Below, in pieces: positions 31,955 through 59,803 of a stretch of DNA of 64,000 nt. The DNA comes from Bradyrhizobium sp. AZCC 2176. GTDB lineage: Bacteria > Pseudomonadota > Alphaproteobacteria > Rhizobiales > Xanthobacteraceae. Each line of letters begins with the position of its first letter. Position 1 is the stretch's first letter. Made by a program: the position numbers and the translations under genes. The stretch covers positions 6,165,501 to 6,229,500 of the forward strand of contig NZ_JAZHRX010000001.1 in NCBI RefSeq assembly GCF_036924645.1. Reading direction: 5' to 3'. Below the pieces are notes generated by a model. It saw only the letters and a list, made by a program, of their open reading frames with translations. It had not been told where the DNA came from and searched no databases.

Positions 31955-31979
31955 AACGCCGCAGCGAAACAGGCGTTCC
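31955..31979 (-). promoter_or_regulatory. EcfG-type general-stress promoter
   Basis: Reading the minus strand, GGAAC, 16 bases, CGTT matches the consensus of the alphaproteobacterial EcfG sigma factor exactly. It lies 27 bases upstream of the SH3 protein start at 31928, with room for a short leader and the GGAGGAA site. Confidence 0.75.
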
Positions 31980-32091
31980 CTAATGGAGTGGTCGCGTTAA
32001 CCAAAGGGTGCAGGCGTCTCGCAGGTGCGAGACGCCTCGCTTTTGTCGCTGGGCGCGCATTCGCGCGACCATTGGCTCACCCCGTTACTCG

Positions 32092-32277
32092 CTATTGAAT
32101 GTGCTGCTGCTGAGCATCGCGGCGAACCTGTTCCTGCACCTGCTTGAAGGTCGGCAATGCCGGGTTCGGCTGCACCGGGGAAACCTTGACCGTTACGGCG
32201 TTTGGACTGTTCAGGAACCATGACGCCGCGACGGCAGCAATAAGTATGGCCACAGCGATGGCAGCAATTCCCTTCAT
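32092..32277 (-). CDS. Small membrane-anchored protein
   Basis: 61 residues. A hydrophobic helix MKGIAAIAVAILIAAVAASW is followed by a polar stretch (NPALPTFKQVQEQVRRDAQQ). It is probably a single-pass or lipoprotein-like periplasmic microprotein. It lies 31 bases downstream of the next membrane protein gene in the same direction. Family unknown. Confidence 0.55.
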   Translation of the reverse strand: MKGIAAIAVAILIAAVAASWFLNSPNAVTVKVSPVQPNPALPTFKQVQEQVRRDAQQQHIQ

Positions 32278-32308
32278 CGCGCGTCTCCCGGAAAATCTGT
32301 TTGCGGAA

Positions 32309-32887
32309 CTAGCTGGAGAGGATCACGCTGTGCTGACGTCGCGACGGATGATCGGCGCCGACCAATGCTTGCGGGTCGGTTGCAATCACGACTTCCGGCA
32401 ACGGCACCGGCTCGATACCGGCAAAGCGACGGTAGAGCGCACCCATGATCGCGCCGTTGACGACTGCAATCGCAAGGAACAGAAACATCGTATGGACGGC
32501 CAATAGCGGCGTCAGCAGCACGACACCCCCGGCCACGAGGCTTCCAATCGCTGCATACTCGCCGCCCCTGCCGCGGTTAAGCGCCCTGGCGATATGGTGG
32601 GCGGCAAGCATGAGAATAGCCGATGGCACGCTGGTGCCGATCAGGGCTGTCAGAAATATCTGCGCCGGAAGCGCGGCAGCGAAAATCGCACCGGGACCTT
32701 CCGCTCCCGCCATTCCGCCGAAAATGACCATAAACATAAACACCAGCACGGCTGAAAGGGCCGCTGGCGCCGTTGCCGCGATGGCAATAGCGCCCACCGA
32801 GGTGCGAACGCGGACGGGACCATCGCCCAGCGACGAGCGCAATTGCGCTCGCGCAGTGATGACAGGCTCCGCGACATCCGCGACCAC
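32309..32887 (-). CDS. Hypothetical membrane protein whose 5' end overlaps a dispersed repeat
   Basis: Up to 192 residues, with four to five membrane helices in the middle (AALSAVLVFMFMVIFGGMAG, SAILMLAAHHIARAL, and further segments). The first 27 codons of the open frame read through dispersed repeat A (EPVITARAQLRSS), so the true start is uncertain and may be the GTG near 32807. The repeat may have replaced the original start region. Family not recognised. Confidence 0.5.
   Translation of the reverse strand: MVADVAEPVITARAQLRSSLGDGPVRVRTSVGAIAIAATAPAALSAVLVFMFMVIFGGMAGAEGPGAIFAAALPAQIFLTALIGTSVPSAILMLAAHHIARALNRGRGGEYAAIGSLVAGGVVLLTPLLAVHTMFLFLAIAVVNGAIMGALYRRFAGIEPVPLPEVVIATDPQALVGADHPSRRQHSVILSS
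32831..32869. repeat. Dispersed palindromic repeat, type A (inverted copy)
   Basis: CGACGAGCGCAATTGCGCTC followed by GCGCAGTGATGACAGGCTC is the reverse complement of the 27671 element. It lies in the 5' end of the membrane protein frame. A related partial copy (GGGCGCGCATTCGCGCGACC) is at 32051-32070. Confidence 0.7.
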
Positions 32888-32964
32888 TTTAACCCGGATA
32901 TCGCTTGGCTCATCCGGGCCACCAGCTAGCTAAAAATCGACGACCTTCCTCACCCCAGCCAACA

Positions 32965-33933
32965 TCATTCCATCATCGGCCGGCCGATCCAAAGCCGGTT
33001 GAGCCAGCGCACGGCCAGGTCCGGTTGCTTGTCGCCTTGCAGGCGTGCCAGCGCCTCCTGATAAGGACCCACTGCGCGCAGACGCATGGGAAGGCGGGGA
33101 TAGATGCGCCGGATCCACGCCAGCGCCCGGTCCATGCTGCGCTGCTCGCGTTCGCCGAACTCAAATCCGAATTCCTGGGCCAAACGCTCCGGCAGCAAAT
33201 GGGCCGTCAGCGCGCGATACCATCTGGGTACGCGCAGTCCTGTGGCGGAGCCCGAAAAGATCTGCTCCGCAATGTCGCGGGCGGCAGGACTGACCGCGAG
33301 GCTATCCGAGTGCGACATCGCTTCCGTGTAGGCTGCGAACGACGTCCAGTCCGCAGGCAGGTCGACCGCGCGAACGCCGAATAGCGCCGCGTACAGCTTC
33401 GCCTCGGCCCAGTATTGTTCGCGCTCGCTGTTGGTGAGTGCAGGCAAGACAAGGTCATGCGTCTGCCAGGCGGTCTCCACCAGCGTGGCGTGAACCCAGC
33501 GTAGCGCCGAAACCTCATTGGCGCTGTAAGCCGAACCGGCTTCGAAGCGGCCTGCTGCCTGTGGCAACGTTCCGGTGATCACGGCGTGGCGGCGATGCAG
33601 CCGGCGGCTTGCGGCCAGCGCCTGATCGAGCGAGCCGAACACCATCGTGAACGTGATGTTGAATGTCCGGTGAAACCGGCCGACGGGATCGGCAAAGGTC
33701 CGGGAATGCTCCGATATGGCGGCGGCGACCCAGGGGTGCGCCAACTGCAGCAACAGCGCCCGCCCGGCGCCAAGGAAAACCGCCGCCTCGCGGTCGACCC
33801 GCCACGTCAAGGACTCCGGGCCAAAGATTCCCGCGATGGGTCCGGCCGCCGCCGCGCGAACGGCATCGAGACTGTTTTCAAAATCATCTGCGGACAACAA
33901 CAACGGCGCGTCCTCAAGCGGGCCTGCCCTCAC
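32965..33933 (-). CDS. Oxygenase MpaB-family (DUF2236) protein
   Basis: 322 residues from GTG at 33933, whose GTGA overlaps the stop of the upstream Bug-type gene, with GGAGG just before. The DUF2236 pattern is visible: TWRVDREAAVFLGAGRALLL near residue 45, HPWVAAAISEHSRT, and HATLVETAW later. MpaB and latex-clearing relatives are heme or iron oxygenases; substrate unknown here. The overlapping start implies translational coupling to the binding protein. Confidence 0.85.
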   Translation of the reverse strand: MRAGPLEDAPLLLSADDFENSLDAVRAAAAGPIAGIFGPESLTWRVDREAAVFLGAGRALLLQLAHPWVAAAISEHSRTFADPVGRFHRTFNITFTMVFGSLDQALAASRRLHRRHAVITGTLPQAAGRFEAGSAYSANEVSALRWVHATLVETAWQTHDLVLPALTNSEREQYWAEAKLYAALFGVRAVDLPADWTSFAAYTEAMSHSDSLAVSPAARDIAEQIFSGSATGLRVPRWYRALTAHLLPERLAQEFGFEFGEREQRSMDRALAWIRRIYPRLPMRLRAVGPYQEALARLQGDKQPDLAVRWLNRLWIGRPMME

Positions 33934-34928
33934 CCGCCCTCCGGCTTGATTCCGGCCGCCTTCATGATCGGCAGCAACCGAGCTTCTTCGCTGTCGCGAT
34001 AGGCTGATATCTCCTGCGGCGTGGTCGGCCAAGCGGTGGCGCCGAGGTCGGCGTAGCGCTGTTTCAACCAGGGATCGCTGAGCGCCTTCACGACGAGTGC
34101 GTTGATTTGCGCCACGAGGTCGGCGGGCATGTTCGCGGGGCCGACCAGGCCGGCCCATGAGGTGATCTCGTAGCCGGGCAACAGTTCTGCCATCGCGGGC
34201 ACGTCGGGAAGCTCCGCCAGCCGCTTCTTCGCGGTGACCGCGACCGGCCTGATCGCGCCCGAGCGCACGCTCGGCAGCGAGCCCGGCAGATTGTCGAACA
34301 ACAGATCGACATTGCCGCCGAGCAGGTCGTTCAGCGCCGGCGCCGCGCCGCGATAGGGCACGTGACGGACCTGGACGCCGGCCATGCTGTTCATCATCTC
34401 ACCGGAGAGATGCAGCGTGGTGCCGAAGCCGGCGGAGGCATAGGTGTATTTGCCCGGCTCCTTCTTGAATGCCGCGAGCAACTCCTTCAGGTCCGCGGAG
34501 AACAGGTCCTTCTTCGCGGTCAAAATGTTCGGCAATTGCCACATGCCGGAGATGAAGGTGAAATCCTCGCGCGGATGATACGGCAGCTTGGCGTAGCTGC
34601 CGATCGCCAGCACGTTGGAGGCGATGCCGCCGAGCCCGACCGTATAGCCGTCCGGCGGTGACTTCACGATCGCATCCGCGCCCAGCACGCCGCCGGCGCC
34701 AGCCTTGTTCTCGACCACGAAGGTTTGCCCGGAAAGTTCGCTCATCTTCTGGCAGATCAGGCGCGAGAGCGTGTCGGTGGCGCCGCCAGCCGGAAAGCCG
34801 TTGACGTAGCGCACCTGGCGGATCGGCCAGCTCTCTCCGGCGCGCCCCACACGCGGCGCCAGCCAGGACGCGGCAACGAAAGAGCCAATGGTCGCGAGCG
34901 CGCGACGGCGGTTCACGGACGACGGCAT
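33930..34928 (-). CDS. Tripartite tricarboxylate transporter substrate-binding protein (Bug/TctC family)
   Basis: 332 residues with a GGGAGG ribosome site. The N-terminus NRRRALATIGSFVAASW is a Tat-like or Sec signal. Bug motifs follow: VRYVNGFPAGGATDTLSRLI, ENKAGAGGVLGADAI, PPDGYTVGLGG, and AGLVGPANMPADLVAQIN. It binds a carboxylate or similar small molecule in the periplasm. It is translationally coupled to the MpaB-like protein, so its ligand may be the substrate or product of that enzyme (inference). No tctA/tctB nearby. Confidence 0.92.
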   Translation of the reverse strand: MPSSVNRRRALATIGSFVAASWLAPRVGRAGESWPIRQVRYVNGFPAGGATDTLSRLICQKMSELSGQTFVVENKAGAGGVLGADAIVKSPPDGYTVGLGGIASNVLAIGSYAKLPYHPREDFTFISGMWQLPNILTAKKDLFSADLKELLAAFKKEPGKYTYASAGFGTTLHLSGEMMNSMAGVQVRHVPYRGAAPALNDLLGGNVDLLFDNLPGSLPSVRSGAIRPVAVTAKKRLAELPDVPAMAELLPGYEITSWAGLVGPANMPADLVAQINALVVKALSDPWLKQRYADLGATAWPTTPQEISAYRDSEEARLLPIMKAAGIKPEGG

Positions 34929-35249
34929 CAGTGTCCTCCCCTTTCAAAGGCCGTGTGCCGCGCTGCAGCTTTTCGCTGTTCTTCTCCCCGGGCTGCGATC
35001 GGCGTGACGGAACGATCTGCCGGTCAGAGGGAGGGCGCGTTCGGCTGGCTTCAGCTTAAGGGCTGCGGGCTATGCTGCAAAGCCCGCATTTCGCAACAAA
35101 AGGTCCCGCGCGCTCCTCACCTGCTCTCTGGCGCCTGATGATTTCAAGTCGAAGACATGCGGCTTCGCCGTTGTCGCTGGAGATGCGAGCGAAGCGAGCC
35201 TCGACGAACGCGCTGCGCGGGCCGTGTCCTTTTTCCTTTGATCCCGCCC
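34929..35249. other. Intergenic stretch without a gene
   Basis: No credible reading frame. Short inverted pairs such as GCTGCGGGCTATGCTGC and GAGATGCGAGCGAAGCGAGC (a fragment seen elsewhere in Bradyrhizobium repeats) are present. Confidence 0.35.
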
Positions 35250-35462
35250 TCACCCGCCCAGCACGTTTCCCCAACCGTCGAACACATACTCTCTCCACGC
35301 GACGGTCCCGTCATCGCGGAACACGCTGGAACGGCGGAAGTCGTCGGCTTCCTCGCCAGTCCAGCTAATGATCTGATCGGCCGTGAGGTCGTGCAGGACT
35401 GCCGGCTCGAACGGGTCGAAGGTCGTCATGGGACGCATGGCTGGCGCTGTCATCATGCGCAT
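35250..35462 (-). CDS. Hypothetical small protein
   Basis: 70 residues if the ATG at 35462 (MRMMTAPAMRPMTT) is used; internal ATGs at 35456, 35453 and nearer MTTFDPFEP are possible. The C-terminal two thirds are acidic and well formed (LTADQIISWTGEEADDFRRS, VFRDDGTVAWREYVFDGWGN). Family not recognised. It is divergent from the CsaA-like gene. Confidence 0.5.
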   Translation of the reverse strand: MRMMTAPAMRPMTTFDPFEPAVLHDLTADQIISWTGEEADDFRRSSVFRDDGTVAWREYVFDGWGNVLGG

Positions 35463-35558
35463 GCAACGCTTTCGCGGCAAGAAAGGTTGCGTTACGGCAT
35501 CCCCAGATATTCGATGCGGATATCTTTGGCGGCCGACCGCGCAAACAATGAGCAAGAC

Positions 35559-35903
35559 ATGCCCCCGCTAAAACCCCAGGCTACCTACGACGATTTCGCG
35601 CGTCTCGATATCCGGATCGGCAAGGTTGTCGACGTGCAGCCGTTTCCCCGCGCGCGCAATCCGTCCCTCAAGGTCGGCGTCGACGTCGGCGCCGGCAGGA
35701 TCATGTGGTCGAGCGCGCAGATCACGAACTACGAGCCGGCAGCCCTGCTCGGCTCGCTGGTCGTGTGCGTCTGCAATCTGGGCGCGAAGAACATCGCAGG
35801 CTTCACATCCGAACTCTTGATCCTCGGCGCCAAGGACGCGGCAGGCAACGTGATCGTGCTGGGCCCGCGCAGCGAGATTGCGATCGGCGAGCCGATCTTT
35901 TGA
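35559..35903 (+). CDS. CsaA-like tRNA-binding protein
   Basis: 114 residues from ATG MPPLKPQATYDDFARLDIRI. The whole protein is one OB-fold tRNA-binding domain: IRIGKVVDVQPFPRARNPSL, then VGVDVGAG, SSAQITNY, and the C-terminal NVIVLGPRSEI, as in CsaA and the Arc1p/MetRS C-terminal domain. CsaA is described as a secretion-related chaperone in Bacillus. The longer open frame is rejected. A small membrane protein follows. Confidence 0.9.
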   Translation: MPPLKPQATYDDFARLDIRIGKVVDVQPFPRARNPSLKVGVDVGAGRIMWSSAQITNYEPAALLGSLVVCVCNLGAKNIAGFTSELLILGAKDAAGNVIVLGPRSEIAIGEPIF

Positions 35904-36020
35904 CATCACGGGTGACGCGGGCGCGGCCTTGTTCGCAGGGACTTCGGCGGGGTACGCTACCGCCGCCCCGCTTCAACGGGCGCGGCTCCAATCCACGCCT
36001 ATCGCAGGGTAAGGATCGCC

Positions 36021-36194
36021 ATGAACGGAAATCGATATTACGGGGTTCGCGTCGAGGGCGCGAAATACGGCGTGGGTTTTGGCTCGGCGCTCGCCATCGC
36101 GATCTCCTACACCAACAACCACTCGATCCTCTGGGCGATCATCCACGGCATCCTGGGCTGGCTCTACGTGATATATGTCGCGCTGTTCAAGTAG
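36021..36194 (+). CDS. Small hypothetical membrane protein
   Basis: 57 residues starting MNGNRYYGVRVEGAKYGVGF and continuing with a hydrophobic stretch (ALAIAISYTNN, LWAIIHGILGWLYVIYVALF). AAGGA lies five bases before the ATG. It is a well-formed frame with good codon use and probably real. It may be a one- or two-helix membrane protein. Function unknown. Confidence 0.65.
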   Translation: MNGNRYYGVRVEGAKYGVGFGSALAIAISYTNNHSILWAIIHGILGWLYVIYVALFK

Positions 36195-36238
36195 GCGCAG
36201 GTAAGCCCCGCCCGAACGGCAAAGCTAAGAGGGCTCCC

Positions 36239-37249
36239 ATGTACCAGATGTTATGCGTTCTACTGGCGACGATCGCCTATGGAAGCACGACTGGACACTG
36301 CCAAGGCACTCAAGAAAGCACTCAGGCCGGCATGACCGCGGTCACGTTTCAGTCTTCCACCTACAGCGACATGGGTCAGCTCTTGACGCGAGAGGCTGCG
36401 ACCGGAGCGGTGACGGTCAGGGCCGAACTCGGCTTCCCCGAACAGGCCAGGAATCGCTATCCTGCCGTCATCGTCGTTCACACCCTCGCCGGCTATCGTG
36501 ACGCCAACGAAGGCTATGCCGCGGCCGAATTGCGCAAGGCGGGCTTCGCGACATTGACCTACGACAGTTTCGCCGCGCGCGGAACCACGGGCGCTGCCCT
36601 GCAGGGATCAACAGGCTATCTGCCGCTTGGCGTTGCGGACGCATACGCCGCGCTGCGGCTTCTTTCGGGCGAGCCACGAATCGATGCCGACCGCATTGCC
36701 ATCATCGGCTTCTCGTACGGCGCTGAAGTGGCGCATCTCGCTTCATTCGAGACGCTGCGATCGGCGCTCATTCCCGGACCGGGCCGGTTTGCCGCGCACG
36801 CCGCGTTCTATCCCGGCGGGAGTTTTGGCGCGGTCGCCGAAGCCAGCGCCTATACCGGCTCTCCGGTGCTGATGCTGCTCGGCGAGAAAGACGACAATTT
36901 GCCGGTGACAAAGATCGAGAGCTATCTGGCCTACGCGCGCGCCGCCGGGACTCCGGCCCCGATCGAAACCGTGATCTACCCGGGCGCCTACCATGCATGG
37001 ACCGTTCCCGACCTCACCCGCGCGCGCTTCTATCCGAACCTCGTCAGCACGAAAAAATGTCCGCTCATCCTGCTCGGGCCGAAGTGGCCGGCTTTGCTCA
37101 TCGACGGCGAGGCGAAGCCGTTCGACCCGGCCACCTTCGGTGCGTGCATAGCGGCAGCGCCCGGCTATTCGATGGGATTTGATGCGGCGGTTCGCGCCCA
37201 ATCGATCACCGACACGGTTCGGTTCCTTCAACGGAGCCTGCGACCGTAG
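36239..37249 (+). CDS. Exported dienelactone hydrolase family protein
   Basis: 336 residues from ATG MYQMLCVLLATIAYG with AGAGGG six bases upstream. A short signal sequence ends near residue 20. The alpha/beta-hydrolase core shows VIVVHTLAGYRDANEG, the nucleophile elbow IGFSYGAEVA, GEKDDNLPVTK (Asp) and YPGAYHAWTV (His). Dienelactone-hydrolase relatives cleave lactones and esters. Substrate unknown. Repeats of two families follow the stop codon. Confidence 0.82.
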   Translation: MYQMLCVLLATIAYGSTTGHCQGTQESTQAGMTAVTFQSSTYSDMGQLLTREAATGAVTVRAELGFPEQARNRYPAVIVVHTLAGYRDANEGYAAAELRKAGFATLTYDSFAARGTTGAALQGSTGYLPLGVADAYAALRLLSGEPRIDADRIAIIGFSYGAEVAHLASFETLRSALIPGPGRFAAHAAFYPGGSFGAVAEASAYTGSPVLMLLGEKDDNLPVTKIESYLAYARAAGTPAPIETVIYPGAYHAWTVPDLTRARFYPNLVSTKKCPLILLGPKWPALLIDGEAKPFDPATFGACIAAAPGYSMGFDAAVRAQSITDTVRFLQRSLRP

Positions 37250-37259
37250 CGAGTAGCCC

Positions 37260-37322
37260 GGGATGAGCCAATGGAGCACGCATTCGCGCGACCCGTTGGC
37301 TCAGCCCGGCTACGTTCGCTAC
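37260..37322. repeat. Dispersed palindromic repeat, type A (partial)
   Basis: GGGATGAGCCAATGGAGCAC, then GCATTCGCGCGACCCGTTGG and CTCAGCCCGGCTACGTTCGC match the second half of the 27671 element. It lies directly after the hydrolase stop codon. Confidence 0.65.
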
Positions 37323-37326
37323 AGTT

Positions 37327-37424
37327 TTGTTCTCCATCCGACTCCAATTTGTTCGCAAGGAACGAATCGGAATCGCACAAGTCAGCGCGGGCCAATTCTT
37401 AACAAGGCGTTTGCTTCGTGCTTC
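37327..37424. repeat. Dispersed repeat, type B (copy 2)
   Basis: Same orientation as 30326-30424, about 90 percent alike by hand alignment, including TTTGTTCGCAAGGAACGAAT. In both places a type A or related palindrome is adjacent, hinting at a composite element. After it, 37500-37585 holds another inverted repeat (GGCGGATTAGCGTTAGCGCA with GGCGCTAATCCACCCTGC). Confidence 0.8.
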
Positions 37425-37591
37425 CGCGAGGATACAGCGGAGAAGTTGCGACGAAGCCGCGCCGCGTTGTCCTTAGCGAACGGCGCGACCGACGGATTCG
37501 CAAGTAGGGCGGATTAGCGTTAGCGCAATCCGCCGTTCTCGCGAAAATTCGGTGGGTTACGCTGGCGCTAATCCACCCTGCTCACCGAAGC

Positions 37592-37861
37592 TCAGGCCGC
37601 TTTCGCGGTCTTCTCCGGCGGCGCGGTTTCCATCGCGCGCATGTAGAGATCGAGCAGGCTTTCGCGCTCGTCGCGCTCGTCCTGGTCCTGCTTCCGCAGC
37701 TTGATGATCTCCTTGAGGATCTTCACATCAAACCCCTCGCCCTTGGCCTCCGAAAACACTTCCTTCTTCTGCTCGTTCAGTTCCTGCAATTCGGTGTCGA
37801 TATTCTCGATCCGCTCGACGAAAGAACGAATCCGGCCGCCGGGAATGGTGACGTCAGACAT
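37592..37861 (-). CDS. gapR: GapR family nucleoid-associated protein (DUF2312)
   Basis: 89 residues with GGAGG five bases before the ATG. The single DUF2312 domain is clear: IRSFVERIENIDTELQELNE, then EVFSEAKGEGFDVKILKEII and LRKQDQDERDERESLLDLYM. GapR of Caulobacter binds overtwisted AT-rich DNA ahead of replication and transcription. Length matches the family. The neighbouring pdxY gene is divergent. Confidence 0.9.
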   Translation of the reverse strand: MSDVTIPGGRIRSFVERIENIDTELQELNEQKKEVFSEAKGEGFDVKILKEIIKLRKQDQDERDERESLLDLYMRAMETAPPEKTAKAA

Positions 37862-37972
37862 GGTGCCTCCCTGTTGAATGAGGTCGTGAAAATGCCCGCA
37901 AACAAATAACCAATGTGTTAACCTCGGCAGGTTCCCCGCCCCGACAACCGGCTTATTCCCCAGATCAATCTC

Positions 37973-38833
37973 ATGAACGTGATTTCTATCCAGTCGCAGG
38001 TCGCCTACGGCCATGTCGGCAACAGCGCCGCGGTGTTTCCGATGCAGATGCACGGGATCGACGTGGTGGCGGTGCCGACCACGCTGCTCAGCAACCGGCC
38101 GGGCTATCCGACCATTCGCGGCCGGGTGCTCGATCGAGAGCTCGTCGCCGACCTCTTGCACGGGATCGAGGAGCGCGGCGCGGTCGATACTGCCACGATG
38201 ATCCTGTCCGGCTATCTCGGCTCGGCCGACAACGCCGCCGTGGTCGCGGACTTTGTCGCCCGCGCCAAGGCCAGGAATCCGGCGCTAGTCTATTGCTGCG
38301 ACCCCGTGCTCGGGGATCGCGACCGCGGCCTGTTCGTCCACGCCGACATCCCGCCGCTGGTGCGCGATTTGCTGTGCCCGCTGGCCGATATCATCACGCC
38401 CAATCATTTCGAGTTCGAATGGCTGTGCGGGGCCAAGGCAACTTCGATCGATCAGGTGCTTAAGGCGGCGCGCGCGTTCATGGCGCGCGGGACGGTTGTC
38501 GTCACCAGCGCCGAGCTTGCCGACACGCCCGAAGGCGAGATCGAGACGCTCGCCGTCGAACGCGCCGACGAAGGGTTCAAGGCCTTTCGCGTCCGCACCC
38601 CAAAACTGCCGATCAGCCCGAACGGCACCGGCGATCTGTTTGCCGCGCTATTGGTGTCGGCGCGCGTCCGCGGCTTCGACACGCCGGATGCGCTCAGCCA
38701 CGCCGCCTCCGCCATCTTCGCCGTGCTGGAACGCACCGAGGCCAGTGGCACCGAGGAAATGCGCATCGTCGAGAGCGCAGAGTGGCTCGTTCATCCGCAA
38801 CGCAAATTCGAATGCATCGCGATCGGCCAGTAG
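37973..38833 (+). CDS. pdxY: Pyridoxal kinase
   Basis: 286 residues. PdxY/PdxK ribokinase-fold signatures are present: ISIQSQVAYGHVGNSAAVFP, then VPTTLLSNRPGYP, YCCDPVLGDRDRGLF, ITPNHFEFEWL, and the catalytic ISPNGTGDLFAAL (Asp in GTGD). It phosphorylates pyridoxal to pyridoxal 5'-phosphate in the vitamin B6 salvage pathway. It stands alone; a shared terminator lies downstream. Confidence 0.95.
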   Translation: MNVISIQSQVAYGHVGNSAAVFPMQMHGIDVVAVPTTLLSNRPGYPTIRGRVLDRELVADLLHGIEERGAVDTATMILSGYLGSADNAAVVADFVARAKARNPALVYCCDPVLGDRDRGLFVHADIPPLVRDLLCPLADIITPNHFEFEWLCGAKATSIDQVLKAARAFMARGTVVVTSAELADTPEGEIETLAVERADEGFKAFRVRTPKLPISPNGTGDLFAALLVSARVRGFDTPDALSHAASAIFAVLERTEASGTEEMRIVESAEWLVHPQRKFECIAIGQ

Positions 38834-38907
38834 GGCGGATCAGCCGCAGGCGTAATCCGCGGTCCATCCGCGGCCGATCGGCTACTCGCTGTCACTCATC
38901 CGTACAA

Positions 38908-44995: not shown

Positions 44996-45334
44996 CTACC
45001 AATAGCCGGGCTCGTCATAATAGGCGTAGGAATCAACGTATGGCGCGCCTGCGATCGCAGCCGCCGTTCCGATCGCACCGGCGGCTACGCCAGCCGCAAG
45101 CCCAACAGGCCCGGGACCGTAATAGACGCGAGGTCCGTAATAGACGCGAGGTCCATAGTAGCTATAGTCATAGCGGCTTGGCGTCCGCACGCCATACCCG
45201 CCGCGCAGATAGTTGGAGTTCGGGTAGGTGAACCCGATCATGCCGGGCTCCTGGGTCGCTTCCTGCGACATCGCAGGCGTGGCAAGTGCGGTCGCAAGGA
45301 TCGCGGCCCCGCCAAGCAGTGTCAGTTTCGTCAT
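44996..45334 (-). CDS. Hypothetical exported Tyr/Gly-rich protein, likely general-stress induced
   Basis: 112 residues. A signal peptide MTKLTLLGGAAILATALATP ends near residue 23. The mature chain has repeated RVYYGP units, a hydrophobic Gly/Ala helix (VGLAAGVAAGAIGTAAAIAG) and a Tyr-rich end. A perfect GGAAC-N17-CGTT promoter lies 30 bases upstream, so it should be under EcfG. Function unknown. Confidence 0.72.
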   Translation of the reverse strand: MTKLTLLGGAAILATALATPAMSQEATQEPGMIGFTYPNSNYLRGGYGVRTPSRYDYSYYGPRVYYGPRVYYGPGPVGLAAGVAAGAIGTAAAIAGAPYVDSYAYYDEPGYW

Positions 45335-45363: not shown

Positions 45364-45389
45364 AACGGACGAGACGAGATGCTTGTTCC
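45364..45389 (-). promoter_or_regulatory. EcfG-type general-stress promoter
   Basis: Minus strand GGAAC, 17 bases, CGTT. It lies 30 bases upstream of the 45334 start. It matches the EcfG consensus exactly. Confidence 0.72.
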
Positions 45390-45506: not shown

Positions 45507-45686
45507 CTCTTGCAACTGCCGGCTCGGGAGGTCCGGTTCCGCTGCGATTCCATGCCTAAAATTTGACCTCTATAGTATTAATAAAATCTTAACGATCCGA
45601 TGTGAGGTGCATCACGGTTGGGCAGAACCTTCTGCGGCTAGCTTCGTACCAATACGAGTAGCTTCGCTTATGCGCAGGAGGCCAAC

Positions 45687-45920
45687 ATGGCCCAGGTTTA
45701 TTTCCACTGTTCGAACTCCCGGGAAGTCCGGATCGACCGGTCCGGCGAAGCGGTGAGCGACCTCGCCGAGGCCCGCGACCGCGCGGCCTGCATCGTCCGG
45801 TCGCTGATCATGGGACGCGACTCGGAAGACTGGCGCGACTGGGTCGTGCATGTCAGCGACGATTTCGACGACGAGATCTTCGTTCTGCCGTTCGCCTTCG
45901 TCCTCGGCAAGCCGCACTGA
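45687..45920 (+). CDS. DUF6894 family protein (copy 1)
   Basis: 77 residues, ATG preceded by AGGAGG. The DUF6894 pattern is VYFHCSNSREVRIDRSGEAV, then DLAEARDRAACIVRSLI, then DWRDWVVHVSDDFDDEIFVL. Function unknown for the family. A paralogue about two thirds identical is at 47903. Each is followed after about nine bases by a small RDPYRPE protein, so the pair was duplicated as a unit. An AGAAC-N16-CGTA sequence upstream (45624-45648) is a weak EcfG-like match. Confidence 0.85.
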   Translation: MAQVYFHCSNSREVRIDRSGEAVSDLAEARDRAACIVRSLIMGRDSEDWRDWVVHVSDDFDDEIFVLPFAFVLGKPH

Positions 45921-47474: not shown

Positions 47475-47660
47475 CTAGCTCTGATGCGGTCCCCGCATCA
47501 GCTTCATGGCGTCCTCGATATGACGCCATTCCCTGGCTTCCTCGGCATCACCCTTGCTCTCGCAAGCCTGTGCATTATGCGCGGCTTGCGCGATCGCGGT
47601 GAGGCCGTGCTTCTCCATCATCTGGCGCGCAATCGTGTGGATCTGCATTTCCGACATCAT
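47475..47660 (-). CDS. Small hypothetical helical protein
   Basis: 61 residues, MMSEMQIHTIARQMMEKHGL, then AIAQAAHNAQACESKGDAEE and AREWRHIEDAMKLMRG. A GGGGAGA site lies before the ATG. Entirely helical, cytosolic. Family unknown. It is divergent from the second DUF6894 cassette. Confidence 0.65.
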   Translation of the reverse strand: MMSEMQIHTIARQMMEKHGLTAIAQAAHNAQACESKGDAEEAREWRHIEDAMKLMRGPHQS

Positions 47661-47902
47661 GTCGCTCTCCCCAGGGTTCCACCAGTCCAGGCCGCAGCGT
47701 TTCGGTCATCGCGGCTTGCTCGTGAAACTGCCGAACCGAAAGTCTCGTTCCTCCCGCTGCGGCAGATAATTTTCGGACAAGTTTAGGGATCGCGCGGTTC
47801 CACTGCGGGTCCCCGTAATATCCCGTCCGCAATCTCCCCGAATATCAAGTCGATCTTGCGGCTGGTATTTTTCAGCGTGAATCGCAATCGCGGGAGTCGG
47901 AC
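47661..47902. other. Intergenic region between divergent genes
   Basis: It holds the promoters of 47660(-) and 47903(+). No clear EcfG or operator motif is seen. Confidence 0.4.
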
Positions 47903-51656: not shown

Positions 51657-51695
51657 AGAGCGAGATGACGATTCGAAGAAAAGTCATCTCGCTCT
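51657..51695. repeat. Inverted repeat / hairpin (13-base arms)
   Basis: AGAGCGAGATGAC and GTCATCTCGCTCT are perfect inverted arms with a 13-base loop. It follows the type E palindrome and may serve as a terminator. Confidence 0.65.
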
Positions 51696-51718: not shown

Positions 51719-51976
51719 TCAGCTCTCCTCCTCCTCCAGCGTCAGCACCAGACCCGTCAGCGCCGCGCCGATGCCGAACATCAACCCATAGGTCGTGACC
51801 AGCATCACCGTGGTCTGAACAGGTGCGTCACTTTTGGCGACAAGGTCCCTGACATGGAAGGCATCGGTCAGGCCGAGCAATAGGACCAGCGACAGCCCAA
51901 GCGCCACGCCCATCAGGAAATGGGTCAGTAGCGCATTGAAGAGTGACTTTTCCGGACGCGATCTTTCCCGACGCAT
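51719..51976 (-). CDS. Small membrane protein, likely general-stress induced
   Basis: 85 residues from ATG MRRERSRPEKSLFNALLTHF; two helices (LMGVALGLSLVLLLGLTDAF and VMLVTTYGLMFGIGAALTGL). A perfect GGAAC-N17-CGTT lies at 52008-52033. The upstream open frame is rejected because it crosses that promoter. Function unknown. Confidence 0.7.
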   Translation of the reverse strand: MRRERSRPEKSLFNALLTHFLMGVALGLSLVLLLGLTDAFHVRDLVAKSDAPVQTTVMLVTTYGLMFGIGAALTGLVLTLEEEES

Positions 51977-52007: not shown

Positions 52008-52033
52008 AACGCACGGCCGAAGGAACTGGTTCC
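52008..52033 (-). promoter_or_regulatory. EcfG-type general-stress promoter
   Basis: Minus strand GGAAC, 17 bases, CGTT, an exact consensus match 32 bases upstream of the 51976 start. Confidence 0.7.
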
Positions 52034-52592: not shown

Positions 52593-53304
52593 TGTCCACA
52601 CGGACTGCGAACTGATTTGCTTCGTGCGCAAGCGTAAATACATGTAGCGGCCTGCGACAAGCTGGCACGACGGGCAAATCACCAAAAATCTGTCCAGCCC
52701 TCCCAGCAAAAATATTCTGCTTTCGTTCTCACCCAAATCAGCTCCATAACTCCGCCCGTCTCACGGCAGATGAGGGGCGTTGGCCATCGTCACGAACGCG
52801 CGGTGAGATGCGATGGACGCTGATGGCGCGCTAGACGTACGCGCCGGACGCGTACGGCGAAGTCGTGTGGTTCGGGCGCCGCGGTGCTGGCGCTAAGTTG
52901 CGTGAAACTGTTTGCGCAGCGACGGAGGCAACAGAGCCGTTCTCCGGGAAGAGCACGAAGTAAGCCGTAAAGCCATTGCGCAGGGAAGGCCGGAATGCTC
53001 CCGCTGCCCTGTATGCTCGTGTGCAGTTTTGTTTGCGCAAATCGCACGCGAGACCGCGGGTGCAGCAAGCACCCGGTCTTCCCTGCGCCCTCTGAACGAG
53101 AGGGTACAGTTCAAGTGCAAACCTCGGGCGCGACGCGCCGCGAGATCATAACGTCATATTCAGTTGTCATCGTCCGCCTTGTGCGCAATTGCGCACTGGG
53201 GCGGACGATCCGGTATTCCAGAGACGCCAGTGATTGAACCAAGAAGTCGCGGCGTACTGGATGCCCGCCTTCGCGGGCATGACGAGCCCGTGCAATTTTC
53301 GGCG
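52593..53304. other. Repeat-rich intergenic region without a gene
   Basis: About 700 bases with no convincing gene. Reading frames on both strands overlap and look spurious. GCCCGCCTTCGCGGGC at 53262-53277 is a palindrome known from dispersed Bradyrhizobium repeats, followed by GCGTCATTGCGAGGAGCGAA. GACCGCGGGTGCAGCAAGCA around 53052 also resembles a repeat. Several short hairpins. Confidence 0.5.
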
Positions 53305-54066
53305 TCATTGCGAGGAGCGAAGCGCCGCCCTGCTCAGCCAATCGTCGAAACGCGTCGGCATGATCCGCGCGCCAGCGTCCGGCACCAGCGTGCGCAACGC
53401 GAGCGGCGCACCGAAATACGGCACGTCAGCGCCCGACACGATCTTGCTGCTGTCGCCCTGCTTGCGCAGCCAGCGGCCGACGAAATCCGCAAGCGTCGCC
53501 GGTTCCGGACCTGCGACCTCGCGTATGCCGTTGGCGGGATCCCCGAGGGTCACGTCGGCGAGCGCGACGGCGACCTCGTCGGAAAGCAACGGCTGCATCA
53601 ACTGGCTGGAGACGTGGACCGCGCCATCCCTGCGCCCGGAATCTGCGATCGCGCCGACGAATTCGAAGAACTGGGTAGCGCGCAGGATCGTGTAGGCCAG
53701 GCCGGATTTCGCGATCAGCCGCTCCTGTGCCAGCTTGGCACGGAAGTAGCCGCTGCTCTCGAGCCGGTCGGTGCCGACGATCGACAGCGCAACGCAATGC
53801 CGTACGCCGCCCTGCTTCGCGGCCGCGATCAGGTTGCGCGTCCCCATCTCGAAGAAGTGCAGTACCGCCTTGTCCTCGAACGAGGGCGAATTCGACACAT
53901 CAACGACAATGTCGGCGCCTGCAAGCGCTACTTGCAGGCCCTCTCCGGTCACAGCGTTGACGCCCCTGCTCGGCGACGCCTGCAGCACCTCATGGCCGCG
54001 CGACCGGAGCAGAGATGCCAATTTCGAGCCGATAAGGCCTGTTCCACCGATGACAACGATCTTCAT
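53305..54066 (-). CDS. NmrA-like / atypical SDR NAD(P)-binding protein
   Basis: 253 residues from ATG MKIVVIGGTGLIGSKLASLL, with a strong GGAG site. Atypical-SDR features: N-terminal GGTGLIGSKL, GADIVVDVSN, HCVALSIVGTDRLESSGYFR, then RATQFFEFVG. No catalytic YxxxK is clear, so it may act as a regulator or isomerase. The frame upstream is rejected. Confidence 0.82.
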   Translation of the reverse strand: MKIVVIGGTGLIGSKLASLLRSRGHEVLQASPSRGVNAVTGEGLQVALAGADIVVDVSNSPSFEDKAVLHFFEMGTRNLIAAAKQGGVRHCVALSIVGTDRLESSGYFRAKLAQERLIAKSGLAYTILRATQFFEFVGAIADSGRRDGAVHVSSQLMQPLLSDEVAVALADVTLGDPANGIREVAGPEPATLADFVGRWLRKQGDSSKIVSGADVPYFGAPLALRTLVPDAGARIMPTRFDDWLSRAALRSSQ

Positions 54067-54227
54067 TTTCCTCGCTCCTCTCTCGAAAGCCGCGGCAACC
54101 CGCACTGCATCAAGACGACTGTGCAAGGCGCCGGCGTGACACGCCACCACTGTAAACTCTGGATTAAGTTGCACCACCTATACTGGTGGCCTACATGCCC
54201 TGACCCGCGCAAATGGCCTAAAATCCC

Positions 54228-56311
54228 ATGAAAATCGGCACCCTCCTGACCACTGCCATCGTCTCGCTTTCCGCCGTCGGCGGCGGGCTCGCCGTCTATG
54301 TGGCGGCTTCGAAATACCAGACCATGGACAAGGTTTCGGTCGCCCAGAGCCGGCTGGAGCTGGTGCGCGCGGTCGGCGATATCCCGCGCTACATGAATCC
54401 CGAGCGTGGCTTTGCCACCAACATCATGTTCGGACCTCCCGCCGTGGATCCGAAGCTGATCGCCGAACTCGACAAATATCGCAAGAACACCGATGGCGCG
54501 CGCGACACAAAATGAACCGGGTCAAAACGACTCTGCCCGGCGCGATCGACGACAGTGCCGCCGTCACCAGCAGCATCGATGCCCTGAACTCACAGTTCGC
54601 TGCGCTGCGCACGGCCATCGACAAGGCCCTCACCGGTCCGCCGGAAGCCCGCCGCGATGCGGCCAAGAAAATCGTCTCCGACAACTCGGTCTTCAACAAG
54701 GCTATCACCACGCTGCTCGACGAGCAGGTGCGCAAGATTGCGCTGCTCGACGGCACGGCCTACCGGCAGGCAAGCTACGCCAATATCGCCTGGACGCTAC
54801 GCGACGTCGGCGGTCTCAACTCCAGCCTGCACAAGAATCTCATCGGCGCCAACCGGGTAGCCACCGAAGCCGAGAAGATGGAGATCAGCCGCTCGCAGGG
54901 GCGAAACGATCAGATTCTGATGACGCTGCAGGAATTGCGCGGCAATCCCTCCACGCCGGCCAATGTGGTCACCGCGCTTGACAAGATGAACGCAGCCTAT
55001 GTCGATCGTTTCGGCAAAGAGCTGAAGCTCGTCAAGGATGGCGCCATCAGCGGCAAATATGAACACGATATGGAGACCTACTACGCAGAGACGCAACTCG
55101 GTCTTGCGTCCATCATTACGGTCCGCGACGCCTTTTACGATAACGCTGAACAGGTGCTCGGTGAAGCCTATTCCTCCGCGCGCTTCAGCTTCCTGATTGC
55201 GCTCGCAGGCCTGGCCGCGGTTGTCACCGCAAGCGGCGCGCTGATCGCGATGGTGCGCCGCCGGGTCTGCAAGCCGATCATCGACCTCACCGCCACCATG
55301 TCGCGGCTGGCCAGCGGCGACGTGTCCGGTGAAATCGCCGGCACCGGGCGCAGCGATGAGATTGGCGCGATGTCCGCTGCCGTTGGTATCTTCAAGGACA
55401 GCATGATCGAGGCCGAACGGCTCGCAGCCGAAAAGGCCGCCGAGAACGACGGCAAGATGCGCCGCGCCCAGGTGCTCGACGAGCTCACCCGCGTATTCGA
55501 AGCCAAGGTTACCGAACTCGTCGGCGGGCTGTCGTCGGCATCGTCAGTCATGGAAGACACCGCACAGTCGATGTCGTCGACCGCAACGCTTACCAATCGT
55601 CAGGCCGCCATCGTTGCCGCCGCTTCCGAACAAACCTCCGCCAACGTGCAGACGGTGGCGAGCGCCACCGAGGAACTGGCCTCCTCGATCTCGGAGATCG
55701 GCCGTCAGGTCGCGCAATCGACCGAAATCGCCGCCCGCGCAGTCGACAATGCGCGGCGCACCGGCGACACCGCCCGCTCGCTCGCCGACGGCGCGCAGAA
55801 GATCGGCGACGTCGTGACGCTGATCCAGAGCATTGCCGCGCAAACCAACCTTCTGGCGCTGAACGCGACCATCGAAGCCGCGCGCGCCGGCGATGCCGGC
55901 CGCGGCTTCGCCGTTGTCGCCTCTGAAGTCAAATCGCTGGCCGGCCAGACCGCAAAGGCGACCACTGAAATCTCCGAACAGATCGCCGCGATTCAGGCGG
56001 CGAGCGACCAGACCGTGACGGCGATCCAGAACGTCGCCAACGTGATCGGCGAGATCGACCAGATCGGCACCGCGATTGCGGCCGCGATCGAGGAACAGGG
56101 CTCCGCGACCAAGGAAATCTCCCGCAGCGTCCAGGAAGCCGCGCGCGGTACCCAGGAGGTCAATTCCAACATCACCGGCGTCCAGAAGGCCGCCGACGAC
56201 ACCGGCGCCGCCGCCAATCAGGTGCTCGGTGCGGCCGAGCAATTGTCCTCGCAGTCCAAGGATCTCGCCGGACAGGTCAACCGCTTCCTCTCGGAGGTGC
56301 GTGCGGCGTAG
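54228..56311 (+). pseudogene. Methyl-accepting chemotaxis protein, split by a frameshift
   Basis: 54228-54515 encodes an N-terminal membrane helix and the start of the sensor; 54512-56311 continues the sensor (four-helix bundle), second helix near 55180-55250, HAMP, and an MCP signalling domain (hairpin tip [40 protein letters not shown]). The frames overlap as ATGA at GACACAAAATGAAC, where adding one A to the A-run would join them into about 694 residues. Read-through loss, or termination-reinitiation coupling, or sequencing error are all possible. No chemotaxis operon nearby. Confidence 0.82.
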
Positions 56312-56405
56312 GCCTAACGGGCGAGTTCCGGACCGACAAGCCGCGCGCAAGTTGTAGCGCCATGCGTTTCGGCTTTCCCTGCCCTCCGCCGCAAATCGAA
56401 CAGAA

Positions 56406-57419
56406 ATGCTGCCTAGCGAATGCGCCTCCTACGCGGGGGCACACTTGAACAAGAAACTGAAATATGCCGCGGCGGCGATCGTCGTCTTCGCCGCAGCCGT
56501 CTACGTCAACAACACCAACCATCTCGCCGCGCATCGGGACGGCAAGCCCGTACTTCTCGCCCATCGCGGCATTGCCCAACGCTTCGACGAACGCGAGCTG
56601 AAGAACGACACCTGCACCGCGGCGCGGATGCTTCCGTCCAGTCACCAGTATCTGGAGAACACGATCGAATCGATGCGAGCCGGTTTTGCGGCGGGCGCCG
56701 ATATCGTCGAGTTCGACGTTCATCCCACCACCGACGGCGAATTCGCGGTGTTTCATGACTGGACGCTGGATTGCCGCACCGACGGCCACGGCGTCACGCG
56801 CGAACACTCCATGGCCTATTTGAAGAAGCTCGATATCGGCCATGGCTATACGGCTGACGGCGGCAAGACCTTTCCGTTTCGCGGCAAGGGCATCGGCCTG
56901 ATGCCAACGCTAGGCGAGGTGCTGGCAACCTTTCCGGAACAGCGGCTATTGATCAATGCAAAGAGCCGCGACCCCTCCGAGGGAGAGAAGCTCGCGGCCG
57001 CGCTGAACAAGCTTCCCGCCGAACGCCGGGCGCAGATCATGGTCTATGGCGGCGACGAGCCGGTCGAGACCGTGCGCCAGTATGCGCCCGGTGTCCGGAC
57101 GATCTCGCGCGGTGCGATCAAGAGCTGCCTCCTCGGCTACATCGGCTACGGCTGGAGCGGTGTGGTGCCGAAAGCCTGCCACAACGCGATGGTGATGCTG
57201 CCGATCAACGTCGCCCCGTGGATGTGGGGCTGGCCGGACCGCTTCCTCAACCGCATGAAGGCGGCCAACAGCGAGGTCTTCGTGCTCGGCCCCTACCGGG
57301 GCGGCGAGTTCTCGACCGGAATAGATACGCCTGAGCAGTTTGCGCGTTTGCCGCAAAACTATTCCGGCGGCATCTGGACCAATGAAATCGAGGCCATCGC
57401 CCCGCTAACGGGCAAGTAG
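56406..57419 (+). CDS. Membrane-anchored glycerophosphodiester phosphodiesterase-like protein
   Basis: 337 residues from ATG 56406; a TTG at 56445 (NKKLKYAAAA) is an alternative start. A signal anchor near residues 18-33, then GDPD-type features: LLAHRGIAQRFDE, ENTIESMRAGFAAGADIVEF, DVHPTTDGEFAVFHDWTLDC. The TIM-barrel HRG...E.D.H set is conserved. It should hydrolyse glycerophosphodiesters or a related phosphodiester, in the periplasm. Confidence 0.85.
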   Translation: MLPSECASYAGAHLNKKLKYAAAAIVVFAAAVYVNNTNHLAAHRDGKPVLLAHRGIAQRFDERELKNDTCTAARMLPSSHQYLENTIESMRAGFAAGADIVEFDVHPTTDGEFAVFHDWTLDCRTDGHGVTREHSMAYLKKLDIGHGYTADGGKTFPFRGKGIGLMPTLGEVLATFPEQRLLINAKSRDPSEGEKLAAALNKLPAERRAQIMVYGGDEPVETVRQYAPGVRTISRGAIKSCLLGYIGYGWSGVVPKACHNAMVMLPINVAPWMWGWPDRFLNRMKAANSEVFVLGPYRGGEFSTGIDTPEQFARLPQNYSGGIWTNEIEAIAPLTGK

Positions 57420-57430
57420 CCCATAGCCCG

Positions 57431-59053
57431 CTAGCTCCGTAACCCCGGCGCCTCGTGCCCGGTGCGCGCGACATATTCGGTGTAGCCGCCGCCAAATTGA
57501 TGAATGCCTTCGGGCGTCAGCTCCAGCACGCGGTTGGAGAGCGCCGCCAGGAAATGCCGGTCGTGGGAGACAAACAGCATGGTGCCCTCGAACTCGGAGA
57601 GCGCGTTGATCAGCATTTCCTTGGTCGCGAGATCCAGATGGTTGGTCGGCTCGTCCAGCACCAGGAAATTCGGCGGGTCGTAAAGCATTTTTGCCATCAC
57701 GAGACGCGCCTTCTCGCCGCCTGACAGCACCCGGCATTTTTTCTCGACATCGTCGCCCGAGAAGCCGAAGCAGCCCGCCAGCGCGCGGAGCGAGCCTTGG
57801 CCCGCTTGCGGGAAGGAATCCTCCAGCGACTGGAACACGGTGCGCTCGCCGTCGAGCAGATCCATGGCATGCTGGGCGAAGTAGCCCATCTTGACGCTGC
57901 CGCCGACGGCGACCGTGCCGTCGTCGGGTTCGGCTGAACCCGCCACCAGCTTCAACAGGGTCGACTTGCCGGCGCCGTTAACGCCCATCACGCACCACCG
58001 CTCCTTGCGGCGGATCATGAAGTCCAGTCCCTGATAGATGCTGCGGCTGCCATAGCCCTTGTGGACATTCTTCAGGCTGACGACGTCCTCGCCCGAGCGC
58101 GGCGCCGGCATGAATTCGAACGCCACCGTCTGGCGGCGCTTCGGCGGCTCGACGCGCTCGATCTTGTCGAGTTTCTTGACCCGGCTCTGCACCTGGGCTG
58201 CATGGGAAGCGCGCGCCTTGAAGCGTTCGATGAACTTGATTTCCTTGGCCAGCATCGCCTGCTGGCGCTCGAACTGAGCCTGCTGCTGTTTTTCGTTCAG
58301 CGCGCGCTGCTGCTCGTAGAACTCGTAATTACCGGAATAGGTCGAGAGCGTGCCGCCGTCGATCTCGACGACCTTGTTGATGATGCGGTTGATGAACTCG
58401 CGGTCATGCGAGGTCATCAACAGCGCGCCCTCGTACCCCTTCAGAAACTGCTCCAGCCAGATCAGGCTCTCCAGGTCGAGATGGTTGCTCGGCTCGTCCA
58501 GCAACATCACGTCGGGACGCATCAGGAGAATGCGCGCCAGCGCCACGCGCATCTTCCAGCCGCCCGAAAGCGCGCCGACGTCGCCCTCCATCATCTCCTG
58601 GCTGAAGCCCAAGCCCGCCAACGCCTCGCGCGCCCGGCCGTCGAGGGCATAGCCATCGAGCTCCTCAAAACGGTGCTGCACCTCGCCGTAGCGCACGATG
58701 ATCTCGTCCATGTCGTCGGCGCGATCGGGATCGGCCATCGCGGACTCGAGTTCCCGGAGCTCGTTCGCTACGGCGCTGACGGGCCCTGCGCCGTCCATCA
58801 CCTCTGCCACCGCGCTGCGGCCCGACATTTCACCGACGTCCTGGCTGAAGTATCCGATGGTAATGCCCCGATCGAGCGAGACCTGGCCCTCATCCGGCGG
58901 CTCCTGGCCCGAAATCATCCGGAAAAGCGTGGTCTTGCCCGCCCCGTTCGGGCCGACGAGGCCGATCTTCTCCCCCTTCTGGAGGGCCGCGGAGGCTTCG
59001 ATGAAGAGGATCTGGTGGCCGACTTGCTTGCTGACGTTATCGAGACGGATCAT
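57431..59053 (-). CDS. ABC-F family ATP-binding protein
   Basis: 540 residues from ATG MIRLDNVSKQVGHQILFIEA; upstream extension rejected. Two ATPase domains: first with GLVGPNGAGKTTLFRMISGQ, SGGWKMRVALARILLMRPDV and LLDEPSNHLDLESL; a charged linker (YEQQRALNEKQQQAQFERQQ); second with GVNGAGKSTLLKLVAGS, SGGEKARLVMAKMLYDPPN and LDEPTNHLD. No membrane segments. ABC-F proteins act on the ribosome E site in translation. Paralogue type not decided. Confidence 0.92.
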   Translation of the reverse strand: MIRLDNVSKQVGHQILFIEASAALQKGEKIGLVGPNGAGKTTLFRMISGQEPPDEGQVSLDRGITIGYFSQDVGEMSGRSAVAEVMDGAGPVSAVANELRELESAMADPDRADDMDEIIVRYGEVQHRFEELDGYALDGRAREALAGLGFSQEMMEGDVGALSGGWKMRVALARILLMRPDVMLLDEPSNHLDLESLIWLEQFLKGYEGALLMTSHDREFINRIINKVVEIDGGTLSTYSGNYEFYEQQRALNEKQQQAQFERQQAMLAKEIKFIERFKARASHAAQVQSRVKKLDKIERVEPPKRRQTVAFEFMPAPRSGEDVVSLKNVHKGYGSRSIYQGLDFMIRRKERWCVMGVNGAGKSTLLKLVAGSAEPDDGTVAVGGSVKMGYFAQHAMDLLDGERTVFQSLEDSFPQAGQGSLRALAGCFGFSGDDVEKKCRVLSGGEKARLVMAKMLYDPPNFLVLDEPTNHLDLATKEMLINALSEFEGTMLFVSHDRHFLAALSNRVLELTPEGIHQFGGGYTEYVARTGHEAPGLRS

Positions 59054-59234
59054 TGGGGCCTGAAAGGGAGGAAATCGCTGCGGCCCGCTGCTTAGGACAT
59101 CTGGCGCGCCGGTGGAAGCGGTTCCGAATAGCATCATTCGGAGTGATCACTCTACCCATGGGCGGGAGCTATTATGCCTGCAACCGCATGCCGCTCGGAT
59201 GCAGAATCGGTCGCGGCAAAACCTTTGAGCCTCG

Positions 59235-59259
59235 CGAACCGATCAGGGCAAGCCTCGTT
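59235..59259 (+). promoter_or_regulatory. EcfG-like promoter (one mismatch)
   Basis: CGAAC, 16 bases, CGTT at 59235-59259, one base off the GGAAC consensus. It lies 36 bases before the DUF2267 start. Confidence 0.55.
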
Positions 59260-59295
59260 ACTTCGTCATATCCAATTGAAGAACGGAGTAGTTCC

Positions 59296-59745
59296 ATGAG
59301 CGCAACAGGTCTCGAAGTGTTCGACAGAACCCTTCAAATCACCAACACCTGGTTGGACGAAATGATGGCGACGCTGCCGCGCGATCGCAAGCTGGCATGG
59401 CATGTATTGGGCGCAGTGCTGCGAACCATCCGTGACCGGGTTCCGGCCAATCTCGCCGCACATCTTGGCGCGCAGCTCCCGCTGTTGGTGCGCGGCACCT
59501 ACTATGACCAATGGCGGCCGAGTGAAACGCCGAAGGCATGGCGATCGGCAGACGAATTTCTCTCCATCGTTTCGGCAGAACTAAGTTCCGTGAAACCGAT
59601 CGGCGCTGATGACGCGGTGCGCGCGGTGTTTCGGGTTCTGAACCACCATGTCGATCCTCATCAGGTCGAGAAGGTCCGACACGCACTTCCCGAAGAGGTT
59701 CAGAAGTTGTGGCCCGCCGATAATCAGGTTTCCTCGGCTGCCTGA
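59296..59745 (+). CDS. DUF2267 domain-containing protein
   Basis: 149 residues from ATG MSATGLEVFDRTLQITNTWL; upstream open frame is rejected. DUF2267 features: WLDEMMATLPRDRKLAWHVL, IRDRVPANLAAHLGAQLPLL, RGTYYDQWRPSETP, then a helical C-terminal half. Family function unknown, often stress linked. It opens a run of five same-strand genes and has its own EcfG-like promoter. Confidence 0.88.
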   Translation: MSATGLEVFDRTLQITNTWLDEMMATLPRDRKLAWHVLGAVLRTIRDRVPANLAAHLGAQLPLLVRGTYYDQWRPSETPKAWRSADEFLSIVSAELSSVKPIGADDAVRAVFRVLNHHVDPHQVEKVRHALPEEVQKLWPADNQVSSAA

Positions 59746-59778
59746 TGCGGCATGTGATCGCGGTTCCGCTAATCGAGA

Positions 59779-59803
59779 AGAACTCTCGCGTTCAGCGGGC
59801 GTT
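59779..59803 (+). promoter_or_regulatory. EcfG-like promoter (one mismatch)
   Basis: AGAAC, 16 bases, CGTT at 59779-59803, one base off GGAAC. It lies 29 bases before the next start at 59833. Confidence 0.55.

Follow-up and report, generated by a model that had tools for sequence, protein, structure and literature searches.

Conserved EcfG-type promoters are predicted to place several small-protein genes in the general stress regulon of a Bradyrhizobium, and one of them is self-complementary

Introduction

Which genes does a Bradyrhizobium keep under its general stress response, and how can their promoters be told from chance strings in a GC-rich genome? The question arises for a 64,000-nucleotide stretch of Bradyrhizobium sp. 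AZCC 2176 (contig NZ_JAZHRX010000001.1, positions 6,165,501 to 6,229,500; the window), in which sequences of the form GGAAC-N16/17-CGTT, that of promoters for the general stress sigma factor EcfG, stand before several genes. Stress-activated PhyR withdraws NepR from sigma-EcfG. RNA polymerase carrying EcfG would then bind GGAAC and CGTT 16 to 17 bp apart and start transcription a few bases downstream.

Such promoters are documented in several alphaproteobacteria. The EcfG promoter is GGAAC-N16-CGTT in Rhizobium etli (PMC3892343) and in Sphingopyxis, where the −10 variants TGTT, CATT and GGTT and the −35 variant GCAAC also occur (PMC7083833). In Sphingomonas melonis it is given as GGAAC-N17-20-GTT, with many hypothetical targets, one of which has CGAAC-N17-CGTT. 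EcfG of Bradyrhizobium diazoefficiens controls more than 100 genes (PMC8092242), and the PhyR-NepR-EcfG regulon described for Bradyrhizobium has the same type of regulator locus as the genome studied here.

We conclude, with a probability of about 0.92, that the window sites are general stress sigma-EcfG promoters driving the genes described below. The predicted targets are an SH3-domain protein and a Tyr/Gly-rich protein, both exported-looking, a small two-helix membrane protein, a DUF2267 protein, a run of small hydrophilic proteins, a BA14K protein and a 61-amino-acid (aa) protein. The regulon is known in kind, and the window genes are putative members of it. Several protein families without assigned function would thus be tied to one defined response, on evidence sufficient to plan a mutant study; a map of transcription start sites exists for Bradyrhizobium japonicum USDA 110 (PMC4842269).

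Results and Discussion

Exact matches in the window and in the genome

A scan of the window for GGAAC-N16/17-CGTT returned three sites on the minus strand, at 31955-31979 (N16), 45364-45389 (N17) and 52008-52033 (N17). A first-pass annotation of this sequence had located the same three by eye, at 27, 30 and 32 bases (in its own counting) from the gene starts at 31928, 45334 and 51976. It had missed a fourth match, at 31953-31977 on the plus strand, which overlaps the 31955 site owing to the inverted-repeat structure of the latter. The three genes, all on the minus strand, encode a 342-aa protein (30900-31928) with an N-terminal signal-like sequence (by eye), one SH3_3 domain (PF08239, E = 5e-9) and a long Arg/Pro/Gly-rich tail; a 112-aa protein (44996-45334) with an N-terminal signal-like sequence (by eye), Tyr/Gly-rich repeats and no Pfam or NCBIfam family; and an 85-aa protein (51719-51976) with two hydrophobic stretches (by eye) and no Pfam match over its cut-off (Romo1, 19 bits versus a cut-off of 27.6). 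They had been described as genes for small exported or membrane proteins, a label that does not fit the first, whose product is not small.

The number of matches carries no weight as evidence. In 100 dinucleotide shuffles of the window, the mean was 0.86 matches and the maximum 3, so that four were never reached and three places alone are not extreme. Genome-wide, in a single contig of 7.15 Mb, the exact string occurs 67 + 81 = 148 times, compared with 105 + 86 = 191 for a reversed control; with no genome-wide excess, the string by itself tells nothing. Matches with one mismatch were likewise at chance level in the window (N16, 19 versus 14.2 expected; N17, 10 versus 13.7). These counts overturn any argument from the number of exact matches alone, and they favor the view that the matches are chance strings of the kind expected in a GC-rich genome. 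Raw motif counting was rejected as evidence; placement and conservation decide.

Placement relative to genes

Placement was scored in 1.264 Mb of the 7.15-Mb genome, made up of three 400-kb blocks picked by coordinate and the window. Genes were called with a dicodon model (1,287 genes), and a match was taken as promoter-located if a called start followed it on the same strand at a distance of 5 to 70 bp. The 28 exact matches in this sample comprised 20 in noncoding and 8 in coding sequence, and 12 were promoter-located. Over 200 permutations of both elements, the means were 25.1 matches, 3.9 noncoding and 0.60 promoter-located (maximum, 4). The promoter-located share was therefore 43% for the exact motif versus 2.4% for the permuted ones, whose noncoding share was 16%. 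With the window removed, 9 of 24 matches were promoter-located (binomial P ~ 3e-9 against the pooled control share). The first-pass annotation had named equal numbers of matches inside and upstream of genes as an outcome that would speak against EcfG promoters; the excess of noncoding over coding matches is the opposite. The spread was uneven, with three matches and none promoter-located in the block at 2.0-2.4 Mb.

Spacing and element variants gave further resolution. Promoter-located matches numbered 5 of 15 for N16 and 7 of 13 for N17, compared with 7 of 126 for 13 other spacings (10-15 and 18-24), among which N21 had the most (2 of 8). Among variants, the promoter-located counts were 6/18 for GGAAC-GGTT, 4/18 for TGTT, 4/23 for GAAAC, 3/17 for GCAAC and 3/14 for CGTA. 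The classes GCAAC, TGTT and GGTT thus agree with the variants reported in the available text on Sphingopyxis, whereas CATT does not. The window holds three promoter-located exact sites in 64 kb versus nine in the other 1,200 kb (Poisson P = 0.013); we do not claim an enrichment in density, because an earlier reader chose the region. Elsewhere, four exact promoter-located sites lie within 3.1 kb at G000:C1 4987243-4990348, before genes of 51 to 78 aa, and four more exact matches, two of them promoter-located, lie at G000:C1 491-496 kb.

Conservation of the three exact sites

Conservation was followed in 60 genomes of the genus, which gave matches to the SH3-domain protein in 37, the Tyr/Gly-rich protein in 59 and the small membrane protein in 43; 30 loci were fetched for each. 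The exact site was kept in 30/30 fetched SH3 loci, starting 49 to 51 bp upstream of the start, and in 80/80 named loci from an SH3 alignment search (the best 80 of 93), some genomes being in both sets. Of these 80, 78 are titled Bradyrhizobium, one is an Alphaproteobacteria metagenome-assembled genome (L353) and one is titled Frankia (L328), which we take for a mislabel. For the membrane protein, 28/30 loci had the exact site (13/13 close and 15/17 distant, at 33 to 47% identity). For the Tyr/Gly-rich gene, it was present in 12/13 close homologues (78 to 100% identity) and in 15/30 loci over all. Both the 45364 and the 52008 sites were exact in 7/7 relatives, the genomes being already among the 30-locus set in the first case and among those of the 60-genome search in the second. 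All nine motif positions were invariant among the distinct rows of the three families (29 SH3, 12 and 13), compared with 66 to 81% mean identity elsewhere.

Conservation in many species despite diverged spacers and the promoter-located share of 43% together refute chance for the three exact sites, and we consider it exceedingly improbable as an account of the matches; for the one-mismatch sites described below, it is conservation that argues against it. On this evidence, we hold with high confidence that the three exact sites are real promoters. Across the order, 13/297 genomes matched the small membrane family, five of them outside Bradyrhizobium and weakly (E = 2.8e-6 to 3.1e-4); these five loci had no exact motif. 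Downstream of the membrane-protein gene, at 51657-51695, is an inverted repeat, AGAGCGAGATGAC...GTCATCTCGCTCT, resembling repetitive extragenic palindromic elements, and L034 has a similar one by eye.

Which sigma factor would use these promoters

One locus of the genome holds ecfG, nepR, a divergent phyR and a gene for an HWE histidine kinase. NepR is present in one copy here and occurs in 59/60 genus genomes, this one included. As a near-consensus control, we scanned the region upstream of phyR, where GGAAC-N16-CGT(A/C) pointing at phyR was found in 27/30 loci. The window sites have the −35 element GGAAC (the three exact sites, 7091 and 47726), CGAAC (59235) or AGAAC (59779). The other features by which an EcfG promoter is known are present as well: a −10 element CGTT (GGTT at 7091, AGTT at 47726), a spacer of 16 to 17 bp, noncoding placement on the strand of the gene, conservation, and a genome encoding EcfG, NepR and PhyR. 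The earlier proposal that the sites are read by sigma-EcfG draws support from placement (12/28), from conservation across Bradyrhizobium and from the single ecfG-nepR/phyR/HWE-kinase locus.

Real promoters might still be used by another ECF (extracytoplasmic function) sigma factor, alone or together with EcfG. A sigma gene followed by its own anti-sigma gene is an arrangement of other ECF groups. The genome encodes further ECF-like sigma factors, the nearest being 39% identical to EcfG (565714-566160); we considered it as a second canonical EcfG and rejected it. The frame that follows it has one hydrophobic stretch and looks anti-sigma-like, with no Pfam match, so that this relative seems to have an anti-sigma factor of its own. 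The single NepR also speaks against this alternative. In R. etli and Sphingopyxis, the available text describes two EcfG factors with partly shared targets (PMC3892343, PMC7083833), which lends the alternative some plausibility. On balance we judge it quite improbable, and use by EcfG the probable case.

Several findings weigh against assigning the window sites to sigma-EcfG, in addition to the genome-wide counts given above. (i) Gene starts came from a simple caller of our own. (ii) The CATT variant class had 0/12 promoter-located matches, and the class [ACT]GAAC-CGTT was not promoter-enriched (3/72, two of the three being 59235 and 59779). (iii) In the 45334 family, 15/30 loci are without the exact motif, namely 14 at 39 to 67% identity and one close homologue (L073), in which the N-terminal part lies in another frame. 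(iv) In the three exact families, upstream windows of identical shape but without known role came close to the motif in conservation (94 to 98% for the best one), and before the DUF2267 gene the motif positions and the best such window scored alike (0.988 each, nine rows). (v) The exact motif GGAAC-N16/17-CGTT was found in 0/30 phyR/nepR upstream regions. The phyR site of this genome, like those of L202 and L203, is without GGAAC-N16-CGT(A/C), and the site of this genome departs further than most.

A self-complementary promoter before the SH3-domain gene

The promoter of the SH3-domain gene lies in a 27-bp inverted repeat, GGAACGCC...GGCGTTCC (31953-31979), that reads GGAAC-N16-CGTT on both strands. 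GGAACG and CGTTCC are reverse complements; when the −35 element is followed by G and the −10 element by CC, the promoter is therefore identical on both strands. Both features were present in 73/81 distinct sites of SH3 genes, and the combination was absent from the 11 remaining promoter-located exact sites of the sample. In the small-membrane-protein sites, scanned likewise, the spacer opens with C in 26/26; in L035, outside that scan, it opens with T.

Such symmetry suits a site for a dimeric regulator, of which the likeness to an EcfG promoter would be a by-product. The dyad is kept in most distinct sites and is confined, among the 12 promoter-located exact sites, to this one. However, GGAAC-N16/17-CGTT is present in all 110 SH3 loci examined (the 30 fetched and the best 80 of 93, with some genomes in both), stays intact also in the eight distinct sites with an incomplete dyad, and keeps a constant distance to the start. 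We therefore regard a mainly regulatory repeat as improbable.

EcfG polymerase could sit on this site in either orientation, since GGAACG and CGTTCC are reverse complements. Stress might then also yield a short divergent RNA that limits or tunes the SH3 gene, for the sake of which the genus would keep the symmetry; we rate such true two-way use as unlikely. In the close SH3 group, a hairpin with at least the stem TCTCGC/GCGAGA is found on the divergent side of 19/20 loci (13/14 distinct rows), at a distance of about 35 bases, and this RNA would run into it; in the window it is a perfect hairpin, GGCGTCTCGC/GCGAGACGCC, at 32013-32036 upstream of the gene, followed on the divergent strand by TCGCTTTT, a little terminator-like. 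In the distant SH3 group, other conserved blocks occupy this position. An Rfam search of 30000-62000 at the gathering cut-off gave no match.

The distant group also has a direct repeat GATGAA-N5-(A/G)ATGAA with an 11-bp period, 56 to 68 bp upstream of the EcfG site, in 17/19 loci (L108, L118 and L120 among them) and in 0/11 close loci; it resembles the site of a two-component regulator. By eye, similar strings stand upstream of some distant membrane-protein homologues (L052, L053).

The palindrome is the only part of these results that might be new in kind. Self-complementary promoters are not mentioned in the portions of the R. etli, Sphingopyxis granuli and S. melonis reports available to us, and a search of the accessible literature found no report joining EcfG, promoter, GGAAC and palindrome. 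With this promoter it becomes a testable question whether a single site can serve an ECF sigma factor both ways.

Short genes among the targets

The proteins behind the 12 promoter-located exact sites, the three window genes included, have 32, 50, 51, 75, 75, 78, 82, 85, 112, 160, 299 and 342 aa (genes from our own caller). Nine of the 12 have at most 112 aa, compared with 22% of the 867 genes that have an upstream gap of at least 60 bp (binomial P = 1.3e-4), and the medians are 80 and 231 aa. For eight of them Pfam gave no match at E = 0.01; the remaining four are an SH3_3 protein, a DUF2267 protein with CBS, a DUF2188 protein and the Romo1 match under its cut-off. The sample suggests that in this genome EcfG promoters with the exact consensus lie mainly before very short genes, a class that annotation and genetic studies of the stress response are prone to overlook.

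The signal-like sequences, hydrophobic stretches and hydrophilic sequence of the window products (by eye), together with the role of the regulon elsewhere, lead us to infer that these products may protect the cell envelope and the cytoplasm against drying or osmotic stress.

One-mismatch sites before a DUF2267 gene and a run of hydrophilic proteins

Two plus-strand sites with one mismatch, CGAAC-N16-CGTT at 59235-59259 and AGAAC-N16-CGTT at 59779-59803, are present where the first-pass annotation had placed them. Since the [ACT]GAAC class shows no promoter enrichment, the argument for both as near-consensus promoters is their conservation. The first precedes a gene for a 149-aa DUF2267 protein (59296-59745, plus; PF10025, E = 1.9e-30). 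In the nine closest of 23 loci (73 to 100% identity), aligned for this comparison, xGAAC-N16-CGTT stands before the gene in 9/9, and the first base is G in 0/9. A DUF2267-CBS paralogue elsewhere in this genome (G000:C1 495052-495539; match, 495052-495483) has an exact EcfG site 31 bp before it, as do 2 of 13 other loci from the DUF2267 search (L136, L142). The absence of G from the 59235-type sites, set against the exact site of the paralogue, may possibly reflect a fixed difference in promoter strength. A search of the accessible literature found no report linking EcfG with DUF2267.

For the 59779 site, we used the 11 of 30 fetched loci that had a near whole-length match at 69% identity or more. 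Eight have AGAAC-N16, two GAAAC-N17 and one TGAAC-N16 (L155, from the alignment), and CGTT is present in all. The site precedes a run of four plus-strand genes for hydrophilic proteins, none with a Pfam match: 60 aa (59833-60015), 74 aa (60031-60255), 167 aa (60252-60755) and 73 aa (60761-60982). At the second, the gene caller chose 60040-60231 on the opposite strand; the 74-aa frame is aligned upstream of the 60252 gene in 9/11 loci and absent there in L152 and L153. As putative EcfG promoters, both sites draw support from their close loci, all of which stay within one mismatch (9/9 and 11/11), and not from the placement of their class.

Further candidates

Three weaker strings complete the set. 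GGAAC-N16-GGTT at 7091-7115 (plus), a candidate of the first-pass annotation, belongs to the GGTT class that was promoter-located in 6/18 cases and is kept in 3/4 relatives that have the gene, the fourth row (G052) being misplaced and unreadable; we count this candidate as supported. It precedes a gene for a 225-aa Gly-rich protein (7145-7822, plus) with a BA14K domain (PF07886, E = 3.2e-16) and an N-terminal signal-like sequence (by eye). GGAAC-N17-AGTT at 47726-47751 (minus), which that annotation had missed, is an exact GGAAC-N17-CGTT in 6/7 relatives, while this strain and G054 carry it with a single mismatch. Its end is 65 bp away from the gene start as called, farther than for the other sites, and the gene encodes a 61-aa protein (47475-47660, minus) with no Pfam match over its cut-off.

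The remaining candidate, AGAAC-N16-CGTA at 45624, was present as proposed and was rejected: of the seven relatives, G054 alone shares the intact string with this genome, and CGTA is not kept in 5/7. At 45601-45615, upstream of a 77-aa gene at 45687, is a TGTGAGGTGCATCAC box with close versions in relatives, which suggests a CRP/FNR-type promoter.

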